Below are positions 60,076 to 64,000 of a stretch of DNA of 64,000 bases, one piece after another. The notes beneath the pieces were generated by a model, which did no database searches, was not told where the DNA came from, and saw only the letters and a program-made list of their open reading frames with translations. Both the position numbers and the translations under genes were made by a program. Each line of letters begins with the position of its first letter. The stretch's first letter is position 1. The DNA is from Levilactobacillus tangyuanensis (GTDB taxonomy: Bacteria; Bacillota; Bacilli; Lactobacillales; Lactobacillaceae): assembly GCF_003946545.1 (NCBI RefSeq), contig NZ_RHOA01000002.1, positions 124,001-188,000 of the forward strand. Reading direction: 5' to 3'.

Positions 60076-60849
60076 TTATTCCGCAAACAATTTCATTAAT
60101 TGGTTCTGTTCCAGTTGGTCCTTCTCCGCACCGCGAACGTCCAACTTAATCTGGCCATCTTGAACCATGACCAGTCGATTGCCGTATTTCAGCGCATCAC
60201 TCATCTTATGGGTAATCATCATCGTCGTTAATCGATGTGTGGTGACAATCTCTTGGGTCAGAGCCATCACCTGCGCACTCGTCTGTGGGTCTAGCGCGGC
60301 CGTATGTTCATCCAGCAACAACAGGTCCGGCTGACTCAGTGTGGCCATCAATAATGACAACGCCTGCCGCTGACCGCCGGACAGGTACTTCACCTGTGTG
60401 CTGAGCCGGTCTTCCAGTCCCATATGCAGCGTGGCCAACAGTTGGCGATAACTTGCCTCCTGCTGCGCATGCCGGTATAGCCCCAGACTCATGCTGCCCG
60501 TGTGCTGACTGGCTAGCGTCAGGTTCTCTGCCACGCTCAGCTCACCGGCCGTCCCCAACTTAGGGTCCTGGAAGACACGTGACAGCCACTGAGCTCGGTA
60601 GGCCACGGACTTTTTCGTCACGCGATGCCCGGCCAAGGTGAGTTCTCCGGCGTCCACCGGCAGCGTCCCCGCGATGGTATTCAACAGTGTAGACTTGCCG
60701 GCCCCATTATTACCGATAACGGAAATGAAGTCGCCCGGTTCAATCGTCAGGCTGACGTTTTTTAACACATGTCGTTCATTTGGGGTCCCGGGAAAGAAGA
60801 CCTTCTGTAGATGCTGGACGCTTAAGACTGCTGATGGACTGGTTTTCAT
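60076..60849 (-). CDS. ABC transporter ATP-binding protein (TrpXYZ-type system)
   Basis: 257 residues. Walker A GNNGAGKST, signature YLSGGQRQALSLLMATL, Walker B LLLLDEHTAALDP and H-loop TMMITHKMSDALKYG. The DEHTAALD form of Walker B and the short ISVIGNNGAGKSTLLNTIAG string are typical of ATPases that go with PF04392 binding proteins. The start overlaps the permease gene by 74 bases and has AGGAG 9 bases upstream, so expression is tightly linked. Probable aromatic amino-acid uptake. Confidence 0.88.
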   Translation of the reverse strand: MKTSPSAVLSVQHLQKVFFPGTPNERHVLKNVSLTIEPGDFISVIGNNGAGKSTLLNTIAGTLPVDAGELTLAGHRVTKKSVAYRAQWLSRVFQDPKLGTAGELSVAENLTLASQHTGSMSLGLYRHAQQEASYRQLLATLHMGLEDRLSTQVKYLSGGQRQALSLLMATLSQPDLLLLDEHTAALDPQTSAQVMALTQEIVTTHRLTTMMITHKMSDALKYGNRLVMVQDGQIKLDVRGAEKDQLEQNQLMKLFAE

Positions 60850-61747
60850 TTTGTTCGACTCCTATCTGTTTGAGGTAACGCTTCAACTGTTGCCGCGTCC
60901 GATACTTGTTCCGAATCAGTGGTAGGCAAATGACCACAACTAAGATGCCGGCGGATAAAATCTTCAAATCATCGACGGGGAAGCCTAAACCCATCGCCAC
61001 CGTTAATAAGTAACGGTAGATGATGGCGCCCAGGACCATGGCCGAGAGCCGTAACCAAATCTGGCGCCCACGGAGGAAGATTTCCCCCACCAGAACGGAG
61101 GCAAGACCAATCACAATGGTCCCAATACCCATCCCAATGTCGGCATACCCATTGCTCTGCGCAATGAGGGCCCCAGACAAGGCAATACAACCGTTAGAAA
61201 TCATGTAACCAATAATCACCATGCGATCCGTGTGAATCCCATTGGCGGAACTCATCGCGGAATTATTCCCGGTGGCCATCAAGGATAGCCCCAGCCGCGT
61301 CTTGAACAGCCAAATAAGGAGTGCCATGACCACGCCGGTCACGATGAGACCAATCCCGATGGTTTGTCCATCTAGCGTCCAACTCATGGGTAACCGATCC
61401 ATTAAGACCTTCTGACTCAGGAGCGGCACGTTAGACTTGCCCATGATATGCATGTTCACGGAGTACAGACCAGTCATGGTCAGAATCCCTGCCAGTAGTG
61501 ACGGCATGTGTAGCTTGGTATCCAGCATCCCGGTCACCCAACCGGCGAGGCAGCCGGCAATAAAACCGGCAATGGTGGCCGTCAGGGCCGACTGTCCTTG
61601 AATCATCGCGTGAACGGTAACCGCCGCTCCCAAGGGAAAACTGCCCTCGGTCGTCAAATCAGGAATATCTAAAATACGAAATGTAATAAACACACCGATC
61701 ACTAACGGCGCCCACAGGAGGCCCTGACCAATACTGGTGATTAACAT
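60776..61747 (-). CDS. ABC transporter permease (TrpXYZ-type system)
   Basis: 323 residues with about eight to ten TM helices, of the BPD_transp_2 type: GVFITFRILDIPDLTTEGSFPLGAAVTV is the hallmark N-terminal segment, shared with branched-chain amino-acid and tryptophan-type permeases. A conserved GNNSAMSSANGIHTDRMVIIGYMISNGCIALSGAL segment is in the centre. Its last 74 bases overlap the ATPase gene in another frame. AAAGGGG precedes the ATG; the binding-protein gene ends 23 bp upstream. Confidence 0.88.
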   Translation of the reverse strand: MLITSIGQGLLWAPLVIGVFITFRILDIPDLTTEGSFPLGAAVTVHAMIQGQSALTATIAGFIAGCLAGWVTGMLDTKLHMPSLLAGILTMTGLYSVNMHIMGKSNVPLLSQKVLMDRLPMSWTLDGQTIGIGLIVTGVVMALLIWLFKTRLGLSLMATGNNSAMSSANGIHTDRMVIIGYMISNGCIALSGALIAQSNGYADIGMGIGTIVIGLASVLVGEIFLRGRQIWLRLSAMVLGAIIYRYLLTVAMGLGFPVDDLKILSAGILVVVICLPLIRNKYRTRQQLKRYLKQIGVEQNENQSISSLKRPASTEGLLSRDPK

Positions 61748-62902: not shown

Positions 62903-63065
62903 AAAAAAACACCAGATAGATTCAAAGTAGAATCTACCTGGTGTTTATCGGGCCCGATATTATTTCTCCAGATAGATTTTACCCGTATCTATCTGGCGCT
63001 AAGTCATGCTTAAAAACTTTAGCTAATCGATAGATACGAACGCATTTGTGCGGCGCGTTCGTATC
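62903..63065 (-). promoter_or_regulatory. Candidate ribosome-mediated attenuator upstream of the TrpXYZ-type operon
   Basis: All on the minus strand. Hairpin GATACGAACGC/GCGTTCGTATC (63055-63065 with 63033-63043). Hairpin C:D CCAGATAGAT/ATCTATCTGG (62987-62996 with 62968-62977). Terminator E:F, 17-bp arms (62930-62946 with 62907-62923) followed by T7 (62903-62909). Alternative pairs: B (63029-63038, CGTATCTATC) with C (62984-62993, GATAGATACG), 10 bp perfect; D with E (62932-62941), 10 bp with one G-U. The Phe-codon region A can pair with 63017-63032 (CTTTAGCT/AGCTAAAG). So A:B, C:D, E:F compete with B:C, D:E. Pairings are read from sequence; the regulation is inferred. Confidence 0.65.
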
Positions 63066-63085
63066 CAACGGTGTGAATACAAACG

Positions 63086-63148
63086 CTATCTAAAGAAAAA
63101 GCTAAAGGCAAATTGGTTATTTAAATGATTAAGGCTATTCGATTTCAT
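63086..63148 (-). CDS. Phe-rich leader peptide (20 residues)
   Basis: An ATG at 63148 opens a 20-codon frame ending in TAG at 63086. Its C-terminal part reads FAFSFFFR: five Phe in seven residues just before Arg and the stop codon. GAAAGGG lies 11 bases upstream of the ATG, slightly far but usable. The frame starts about 33 nt after the expected transcript start, and the Phe codons overlap the first pairing segment of the attenuator. The likeness to the pheL peptides of enteric bacteria is in composition only. I infer that ribosome stalling on Phe codons controls the downstream terminator. Confidence 0.62.
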   Translation of the reverse strand: MKSNSLNHLNNQFAFSFFFR

Positions 63149-63187
63149 AATGGCAAAATCCCTTTCATTTATCAATTTACAAGTCTA

Positions 63188-63216
63188 AGTAAAACATTAA
63201 AAAATAACCATGTCAA
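63188..63216 (-). promoter_or_regulatory. Promoter of the Phe-rich leader
   Basis: Minus-strand TTGACA (63211-63216), 17-bp spacer, TTTACT (63188-63193). It lies 15 bp after the DegV stop codon, so the leader is its own transcription start and the terminator at 62903 need not belong to the DegV gene. Confidence 0.7.
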
Positions 63217-63230
63217 CCCCATAATCTCAT

Positions 63231-64000
63231 TTATTTCTCATTATCCAAATTGAGGAACTGCCGGTAATCGGCATTCCAGGCCAGCCCCATGGCGCCATCC
63301 CCCACGTGAACCCCGAAGCTAGGCCCAATGGTGGCGGACTTCAAGGTCACGGCTGGTAGCTCCGCCTGGGCCCAAGCCAACCATTGCTGAGTCAGCTCTG
63401 GCTGGTCGGCATTCAGCACCGTCACGGTCAGCTGAGTGGCGGGGTGTCCCTTAAGGCTAGCCGTCAACCGATCGAACAGATCGTGCCAGCCACTCTTCAT
63501 TCGCAACGAGCTCCCTGCCACACGAACCTTCCCCGACGCTTCAAAGACCAGCAAGGGCTTACCGGCCAGCAGTTGCGCATTAGCCGGGCCCCGACTGAGG
63601 TTCAGATCGCCGGTTCTCAGTAATGGCTTGATGGAATCCACCACAAAGCCTAGCTGACAAGTGGCCCGTAGCGCTGCCAGTCGTTCCAGAATCGTTGGCA
63701 CATCGAATCCCTTGGCGACCAGAGCCGCCGCTAAGCGCGCCTGTTCACCCATTGGCGTTAACACACCGCGAGAATCCCACGGCCAAATTTTCACGCTGGT
63801 CACATTCTCTGTAAAGGCGCCTAAGGTATTCACAAAGCCGGAAATGCCCTGCGAGGGGCCAATGATGATCACGTCGGTCACGCCCTGTTTCGCCAAGTCG
63901 TCACAAGTTGCAGCAATCGTCTGCATGGAAATCTGCGGTGCCGTGGGAATCATTTTCTCTCCCTTACTCAATCGCACCAACCGATAGTAGTCCGCGGTAC
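63231..64000 (-). CDS. DegV family fatty-acid-binding protein (N-terminus outside window)
   Basis: The frame is open to the window edge (TADYYRLVRLSKGEKMIPTAPQIS), so it is truncated at its 5' end; the apparent start at 63980 is not real. DVIIIGPSQGISGFVNTLGAF and VKIWPWDSRGVLTPMGEQARLAAALVAKG are conserved DegV segments that line the fatty-acid pocket, and FVVDSIKPLLRTGDLN is the typical middle strand. DegV/FakB proteins bind fatty acids and present them to the FakA kinase. FakA is not in the window. Confidence 0.85.
   Translation of the reverse strand, partial: TADYYRLVRLSKGEKMIPTAPQISMQTIAATCDDLAKQGVTDVIIIGPSQGISGFVNTLGAFTENVTSVKIWPWDSRGVLTPMGEQARLAAALVAKGFDVPTILERLAALRATCQLGFVVDSIKPLLRTGDLNLSRGPANAQLLAGKPLLVFEASGKVRVAGSSLRMKSGWHDLFDRLTASLKGHPATQLTVTVLNADQPELTQQWLAWAQAELPAVTLKSATIGPSFGVHVGDGAMGLAWNADYRQFLNLDNEK

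Follow-up and report, generated by a model that had tools for sequence, protein, structure and literature searches.

A leader-peptide attenuator predicted to control an aromatic amino acid importer, and its codon-exchangeable relatives in Lactobacillales

The three-gene operon of an aromatic amino acid importer, found in the 64,000-nucleotide stretch of Levilactobacillus tangyuanensis DNA analysed here (the window), is very probably controlled by a ribosome-mediated transcription attenuator responding to charged tRNA-Phe. In the Firmicutes, the control of amino acid genes is usually ascribed to T-boxes and repressors. A sequence-only reading of this region had described a promoter, a 20-codon frame, a chain of hairpins and a terminator with seven T, all of which lie on the minus strand, and both its coordinates and its description were right. 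It had also proposed that the ribosome-mediated attenuator senses phenylalanine; the sequence tests that it suggested turned out favourable, and this explanation stands as the best reading. The extent of the system had not been foreseen: the leader is spread across the order and comes in Phe/Tyr and branched-chain versions, possibly with a Trp cousin.

The importer operon and its predicted substrate

The operon lies on the minus strand and encodes, according to Pfam, a substrate-binding lipoprotein of the TrpX/CD0873 family (PF04392; 61771..62745), an ABC permease (BPD_transp_2; 60776..61747) and an ABC ATPase (60076..60849). The binding protein reaches 302 bits with the NCBIfam TrpX model NF041285, under the cut-off of 390. 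Among its solved relatives, CD0873 (6HNI) binds Tyr, SP1069 (3LFT) Trp and VC_1101 (3LKV) Phe; for these three, in the same order, the two selectivity positions are Glu/Tyr, Ala/Gln and Ala/Tyr (accessible part of PMC6816091). The window protein carries Ser/Tyr at the two specificity positions, with no Gln at the one that selects Trp. In the binding proteins linked to related leaders, the second position is never Gln (0/165); it is Tyr in 153, Phe in 10 and another residue in 2, five of the 170 proteins not being aligned. Six binding proteins with an acidic first position have Tyr-richer leaders (0.70 vs 0.32, p 0.001). The suggestion that this transporter, usually called tryptophan-type, handles Phe or aromatic residues in general agrees with specificity residues that are not of the Trp type, and the importer is predicted from its sequence to be a Phe (or Tyr) importer. 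With a binding protein of an aromatic-binder family and non-Trp residues, the operon would import the amino acid sensed by its leader, as judged by the predicted ligand. A search for prephenate dehydratase gave no match in the organism's own genome and a match in 14/14 control genomes; Phe auxotrophy is therefore predicted, which fits an importer under Phe control.

Architecture of the leader

The leader is located upstream of the operon and on the same strand. A sigma-70-type promoter, TTGACA-N17-TTTACT, can be read directly at 63188..63216 (TTGACA at 63216-63211, TTTACT at 63193-63188), and similar hexamers occupy the equivalent place in related leaders. The leader peptide ORF (63086..63148) consists of 20 codons, MKSNSLNHLNNQFAFSFFFR, from the ATG at 63148 to a TAG stop codon at 63088-63086, with GAAAGGGA as Shine-Dalgarno sequence 5' of the ATG. 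Its C-terminal end is FAFSFFFR, Phe making up five of the last eight codons. Related leaders keep the frame together with its aromatic codons, one of the points that the sequence-only reading had proposed to check: 49 distinct leaders share the FSFFFR ending, the Enterococcus version reads QLNN..FSYFR, and the start codon is ATG in 277 of 282 leaders, the ORF rule used favouring ATG. As in other attenuators, the predicted translation of the leader ORF holds a codon run for one amino acid, and an intrinsic terminator with a mutually exclusive antiterminator lies between this ORF and the first gene. A terminator was found by rule in 215 of the 282 family leaders.

The hairpin chain described earlier is present, yet it counts seven segments and not six because the hairpin GATACGAACGC:GCGTTCGTATC (S2:S3) is part of it. 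Segment S1a (CTTTAGC, 63101..63107) lies within the Phe codons and has the 3' end of S3 as partner, while S1c (CGTTTGTATTC, 63075..63085), directly 3' of the stop codon, pairs with S2 and would be masked by a ribosome at the stop. S2 (GGATACGAACGC, 63055..63066) can join S1c or S3, and S3 (GCGTTCGTATCTATCGATTAGCTAAAG, 63017..63043) can join S1, S2 or S4. The partner of S4 (CCAGATAGATACGGG, 62982..62996) is S3 on the read-through path or S5 on the termination path; S5 (AATCTATCTGG, 62968..62978) pairs with S4 or, forming the antiterminator, with S6. S6 (CACCAGGTAGATTC, 62930..62943) is otherwise the 5' arm of the intrinsic terminator, whose 3' arm S7 (GAATCTATCTGGTG, 62923-62910) is followed by T7 at 62909-62903, the two spanning 62903..62923. 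The whole leader folds at -95.8 kcal/mol against -59.3 kcal/mol for shuffles (z -8.1), a value as low being reached by 0/100 shuffles.

Two further elements were observed around this chain. A self-complementary ATCGGGCCCGAT at 62947-62958, between S5 and S6, has its GGGCCC core in most of the 49 FSFFFR leaders, and no separate hairpin corresponds to it in the Enterococcus leaders inspected; it is possibly a pause site or an extra stem. At 63110-63180, the 5'UTR AAATTGATAAATG is complementary to the HLNNQF codons and could hide the Shine-Dalgarno sequence by pairing with them. The native 5'UTR:LNN pairing has a lower energy than the swapped one in 116 of 184 cases (p 3e-7), with weak covariation support.

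Spread of the leader family

A blastn search found a match in 15/151 genomes of the family, three of which (L014-L016) later proved different: L014 and L016 have the same AFSFFF codons in a different RNA, and neither these nor L015 matches the HMM, so that all three were left out of the leader family. In L014, the leader MNSMQRVAFSFFFKIPSNRLVD (1482-1550) uses the same 19 bases for AFSFFF and is followed by an amino acid permease-like ORF. A pattern scan retrieved at least 118 stretches in named genomes. Among the 80 matches listed are Enterococcus, Tetragenococcus, Levilactobacillus, Companilactobacillus, Lactiplantibacillus, Pediococcus, uncultured Lactobacillus and Aerococcaceae, besides two loci (L042, L077) that are chance matches.

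A covariance model, R1, was built from 39 leaders, omitting L049, which contains N. At E <= 0.01, it matched 253/395 genomes and 60/80 genera of the order, conservation on a scale that rules out a chance origin of the leader. In one family sharing a leader with an Aerococcaceae genome (L078, L205), 48/76 genomes and 20/21 genera had a match; at the level of the class, 35/398 genomes did, 5 of these 35 lying outside the order. The window's own genome has one copy. With such an attenuator in 253/395 genomes, the aromatic metabolism of lactobacilli and enterococci is probably sensed by the ribosome. The leader pool analysed below started from 330 loci, of which 8 without HMM hit were dropped; removal of identical copies from 337 hits left 284 leaders, and two of these had no ORF, giving 282 distinct leaders with an ORF.

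None of the Rfam families reached its cut-off in the window. Weak hits to the trpB motif (27.7 bits, E 0.1), two microRNAs and HYMAI were taken as chance. The absence of a T-box from the locus, claimed by the sequence-only reading, was borne out by the Rfam search of window and genome, which rules one out here: RF00230 has no match over the cut-off in the window, whereas the rest of the genome has 24 matches, 6 of which exceed the cut-off. With RF02863 (sRNA_2410), the window scores 37.7 bits, under the cut-off of 61, which is exceeded by four of five relatives tested: L036, L044 and L027, before trpX-like genes, and L046, before a DAHP synthase gene. The name of this Rfam family implies an sRNA acting in trans, a function to which the window's match (E 9e-5, below cut-off) would lend some weight, together with the two transcripts seen for sRNA_2410 on E. 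faecium Northern blots in a paper whose accessible part lists it among sRNAs (PMC5593968). However, 254 of the 282 leaders are located 5' of a co-directional aromatic or ilv/liv gene, the others preceding another gene (17) or no gene of at least 100 codons that was found on the DNA analysed (11), and in L036, the Rfam hit starts within the ORF of a leader that belongs to a TrpX-type operon. A trans-acting sRNA appears very improbable on these grounds, and the leader is discussed hereafter as an attenuator of the genes that follow it.

Conservation and covariation of the pairings

The pairings were compared within the 49 FSFFFR leaders and among 39 diverse leaders. In the former, S3:S4 is 98.8% and S4:S5 99.6% paired. 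Cells changed on both sides number 8 for S2:S3, 3 for S3:S4, 6 for S4:S5, 7 for S5:S6 and 49 for S6:S7, counts reached by 0, 12, 0, 2 and 0 of 300 shuffles, respectively. S1:S3 and S1c:S2 show zero both-side changes within this group, where they are therefore uninformative. Among the 39 leaders, the S1a:S3 helix is 99.3% paired, with two pairs changed on both sides in one sequence each, and S1c:S2 is 100% paired, its variation being mostly one-sided; S1:S3 and S1c:S2 jointly are 99.8% paired, with three both-side-changed pairs in one sequence each. S2:S3 is 94.6% paired in the same sample and includes a single pair with A-U in 27, G-C in 10 and G-U in 2 leaders. Its 14 both-side-changed cells compare with 7.0 in shuffles (0/500 as high), the number of pairs with a both-side change (2) being no higher than in shuffles and the cell count alone being higher.

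A second test exchanged arms between dissimilar leaders, with statistics that, like those above, ignore phylogeny. From the 282 leaders, 67 were set aside that lacked a terminator by rule or had too little sequence, and 20 more were cut for terminator position or short arms; the remaining 195 were thinned to 134 non-redundant leaders. The mean energy of S5:S6 is -13.8 kcal/mol for native, -9.1 for swapped and -7.6 for shuffled arms (p=2e-22). Native energies are lower than swapped ones in 126 of the 134 leaders for S5:S6, 133 for S6:S7, 104 for S3 with downstream sequence and 98 for S1 with S3. In two Aerococcaceae leaders, the usual arm pair is replaced by GGCTTCTTTAGATA with TATCTAAAGGGAGCC opposite. 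By these comparisons of sequences, the antiterminator arms co-evolve. S3:S4 and S5:S6, the two pairings that had been expected to prevent termination (there named B:C and D:E), thus covary by pair counts and by the swap test. The complementarity of S5 and S6 could descend in part from the duplication of one hairpin.

Ribosome position and choice of fold

From these parts, we infer that the leader is translated and that the supply of Phe decides between termination and read-through. The ribosome would begin the 20-codon leader and, when Phe-tRNA is short, would stall on Phe codon 13, 15 or 17 and cover S1a. The stalled ribosome would leave S1c holding S2, so that S3 is free for S4; formation of S3:S4 would allow S5:S6, no terminator would form and transcription would read through. 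When Phe-tRNA is plentiful, the ribosome would reach the TAG and cover S1c, in which case S2:S3, S4:S5 and S6:S7 would form and transcription would end at T7.

Folding with a placed ribosome had been suggested as a check. It was performed here on the RNA 3' of the ribosome only, the polymerase having just cleared S5, in snapshots taken at equilibrium instead of true co-transcriptional folding; in these in silico snapshots, the fold changes with the position of the ribosome in the expected sense. When the A-site holds Phe codon 15 or 17, S3:S4 reaches 0.74 and 0.70, S4:S5 0.01 and 0.07, and S1c:S2 about 1. With the A-site at the stop codon, S2:S3 rises to 1.0 and S4:S5 to 0.90 as S3:S4 falls to 0. 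Stalling on Phe 15 or 17 is thus predicted to favour read-through, and arrival at the stop codon to favour termination; this is the classical sign. Moving the A-site to Phe18 is enough for the termination fold to prevail past S5, which would leave fewer than five Phe codons with a regulatory role; other ribosome footprints move this border by one or two codons. A mixed population is obtained with no ribosome, S4:S5 being at 0.58 and S3:S4 at 0.27 past S5, and S3:S4 at 0.74 at full length. Once S6 is out and S7 is not, S5:S6 still holds 0.72-0.79 when the ribosome has reached the stop codon, and when S7 is present at full length, the terminator wins in every ribosome state. The outcome must accordingly be kinetic, set by the order in which the helices form.

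The GATACGAACGC hairpin had been considered a weak point of the proposal, having to open for the mechanism to work. In the modelled folds it has the opposite part: a ribosome at the stop codon allows it to form, the termination fold follows from it, and S2:S3 would be the arm that turns 'ribosome at stop' into termination. A partner switch of S2 was looked for in 92 leaders, the 134 above minus 42 without a recognisable S2. It goes in the same direction in 45/92 and in the opposite direction in 0/92, and is not above 0.3 in 47/92.

Leader codons and downstream genes

The codon type of the 282 leaders was scored from their nine final codons by a fixed rule, and downstream genes were named via one representative per single-linkage cluster. 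The aromatic group of downstream genes comprises TrpX-type binding proteins (170), aroE (38), DAHP synthase (10), prephenate dehydratase (7), aroC (4), aminotransferase I/II (3), aroB (2) and aroK (1). Branched-chain genes, in Aerococcaceae-like genomes, are those of LivJ-like binding proteins (9), ilvE (5), ilvA (3) and ilvB (2). Leaders before aromatic genes end in YYFSYFR, AFSFFFR, FYFSYFR and similar; those before ilv/liv genes end in IISIIR, ISIIIR, LLISVIR or a Leu-rich variant, carried by the same RNA scaffold. Before aromatic genes, 227 leaders are of Phe/Tyr type and 0 of branched-chain type; before ilv/liv genes, the numbers are 0 and 19. All 246 classified cases agree (246/246; Fisher 9e-29, ignoring phylogeny). 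Thirteen of the 282 leaders are unclassified, 8 of them TrpX-type and 5 others, and include ORF picks wrong by inspection (L013 first pick, L253, L295, L242). Of the 14 genomes that have a branched-chain-type leader, 12 also possess aromatic ones; the two types are distributed according to operon, apart from cases in which an unexpected kind of gene follows. Leaders of branched-chain type come from one family; the covariance model, because it was built from aromatic leaders only, is biased against other leader types.

Leaders of the erm type report general translation. The RNA logic described above needs merely a ribosome that stops early or late and would suit an attenuator of this kind, reporting general translation instead of Phe supply, but the type of codon agrees with the class of amino acid that the operon handles in every classified case, and we give this explanation very little credence. 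Sensing of a particular amino acid through the leader codons is the reading retained.

Less expected genes are also found behind the leader, namely those of CitMHS-type transporters (L325, L327, L328), SBP_bac_3 proteins (L192, L332), a transketolase (L344) and a 2-hydroxyacid dehydrogenase (L302); the leader 5' of the transketolase gene carries a Trp codon. In L239/L251, L249/L230 and L013, two leaders adjoin before binding-protein genes, one Tyr-only (YYYGYYG, YYYSYYG) and the other Phe-rich, which suggests separate Tyr and Phe importers.

A Trp-type neighbour and the leader peptide

Just past the right end of the window, at contig position 188569-189558, lies the gene of a paralogous binding protein whose Trp-selecting position is occupied by Gln. 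A DegV-family gene (63231-64000) is located between the Phe-type and Trp-type importer operons. The leader of the paralogue reads MQMSAYKLNGRWQSR followed by a stop codon (L355 1157-1204, contig ~188327), and a candidate promoter, hairpins and a terminator are seen by eye. A search for the Trp type in 201 genomes gave a match in 185, and the best 30 of these loci were analysed. In 28 of the best 30, there is a short ORF that closes with a Trp codon and three or four further residues, mostly WQSR and stop. Gln occupies the Trp-selecting position in 29 of the best 30 loci; among the 28 loci that carry a Trp-codon leader, 27 have it and one could not be read there. This Gln was expected, as the best 30 loci had been picked by similarity to the Trp-type protein; the Trp codon in them is an independent observation. 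The Trp-codon leader is possibly a cousin of the Phe leader.

TnaC represents the arrest-peptide type of leader. A nascent peptide of that type, blocking its own elongation or release together with the free amino acid, could operate through the same RNA chain, and several features of the peptide would be in keeping with it: 169 of the 253 distinct leader ORFs keep LN, its Leu being written with each of the six possible codons, Arg is terminal in 243/282 leaders, twice with CGC/CGT codons, and most Trp leaders among the best 30 loci have one Trp codon in a W-Q-S-R context. Aromatic leaders, however, usually hold at least four target codons (249/282 by the codon rule), branched-chain codons replace aromatic ones on the same scaffold before ilv/liv genes, and the Ser-Arg codons, more weakly the LN codons, lie also within paired RNA. 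An arrest peptide as the sensor is thus improbable, and stalling of the ribosome on codons short of charged tRNA is preferred.

A probable codon-exchangeable sensor

Beyond the single locus, the same scaffold is found ahead of genes for making and taking up aromatic amino acids throughout Lactobacillales and, carrying mostly Ile codons, ahead of ilv/liv genes of Aerococcaceae. We consider it likely that a single leader-RNA scaffold of ancestral origin senses amino acids in general throughout Lactobacillales, its codons being exchangeable, and that it works both alongside T-boxes and in their place. A few swapped codons would re-aim it to Phe/Tyr before shikimate genes and aromatic importers, to Ile (or Leu) before ilv/liv genes of Aerococcaceae and possibly, in a cousin with one Trp codon, to Trp before Trp-type importers. 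The codons would then annotate the substrate of the transporter, and the LN..S..R-stop frame may add nascent-peptide stalling. A single scaffold with Phe/Tyr codons in some leaders and Ile codons in others amounts to a natural experiment on codon-specific sensing. Leader codons offer a cheap and testable predictor of transporter substrate, which puts 'tryptophan transporter' labels into question, and the leader family offers a meaning for an orphan Rfam sRNA.

Comparison with known systems

Ribosome-mediated attenuation is already known, and in Firmicutes it has been shown or predicted for ilv-leu and his genes (PMC5794164, PMC2965389 and PMC9413887, as far as their accessible parts go). The sequence-only reading had noted that Firmicutes normally rely on T-boxes, but leader-peptide attenuation is not unprecedented in the phylum. 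In Staphylococcus aureus ilv-leu, mutants and reporters support attenuation by Leu through a leader peptide; the Firmicutes leader peptide is shared, whereas that system senses Leu/Ile in one operon, and it is likened here by description, not by RNA (accessible part of PMC5794164). His leader peptides were predicted for hisS/hisZ of Bacilli (PMC2965389) and for his operons of the B. cereus group, Eubacteriales and Erysipelotrichales (PMC9413887); in the accessible parts of both papers, they are likewise predicted attenuators where T-boxes are usual in Firmicutes, but for His only, and that of the 2022 his-leader paper names no Lactobacillales case. The uORFC-13-1 motif upstream of aroF, with 24 representatives from Acholeplasma and environmental sequences only, also combines a Phe-coding uORF and a terminator before a DAHP synthase gene, a likeness of description, not of sequence (accessible part of PMC8632094). 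The trpXYZ operon of S. suis, a Trp uptake system, is a related transporter operon under transcription attenuation, but via a tRNA-Trp T-box and for Trp (accessible part of PMC9382623). RF02863 is homologous to the leader but was named as an Enterococcus sRNA. In the open-access literature, as far as its texts were accessible, no description of an order-wide, codon-exchangeable leader family as an attenuator, or of its spread, was found; an earlier mention in older papers is possible.

The classical leader-peptide attenuators are those of pheA, pheST, his, trp and ilv in Proteobacteria. The present family resembles them in having a leader ORF with repeated codons for the sensed amino acid, mutually exclusive hairpins and a terminator before the first gene. 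Unlike them, it has seven segments with a separate S2:S3 hairpin that would form with the ribosome at the stop codon, a sequence conserved across an order, and codon-swapped versions on one scaffold.
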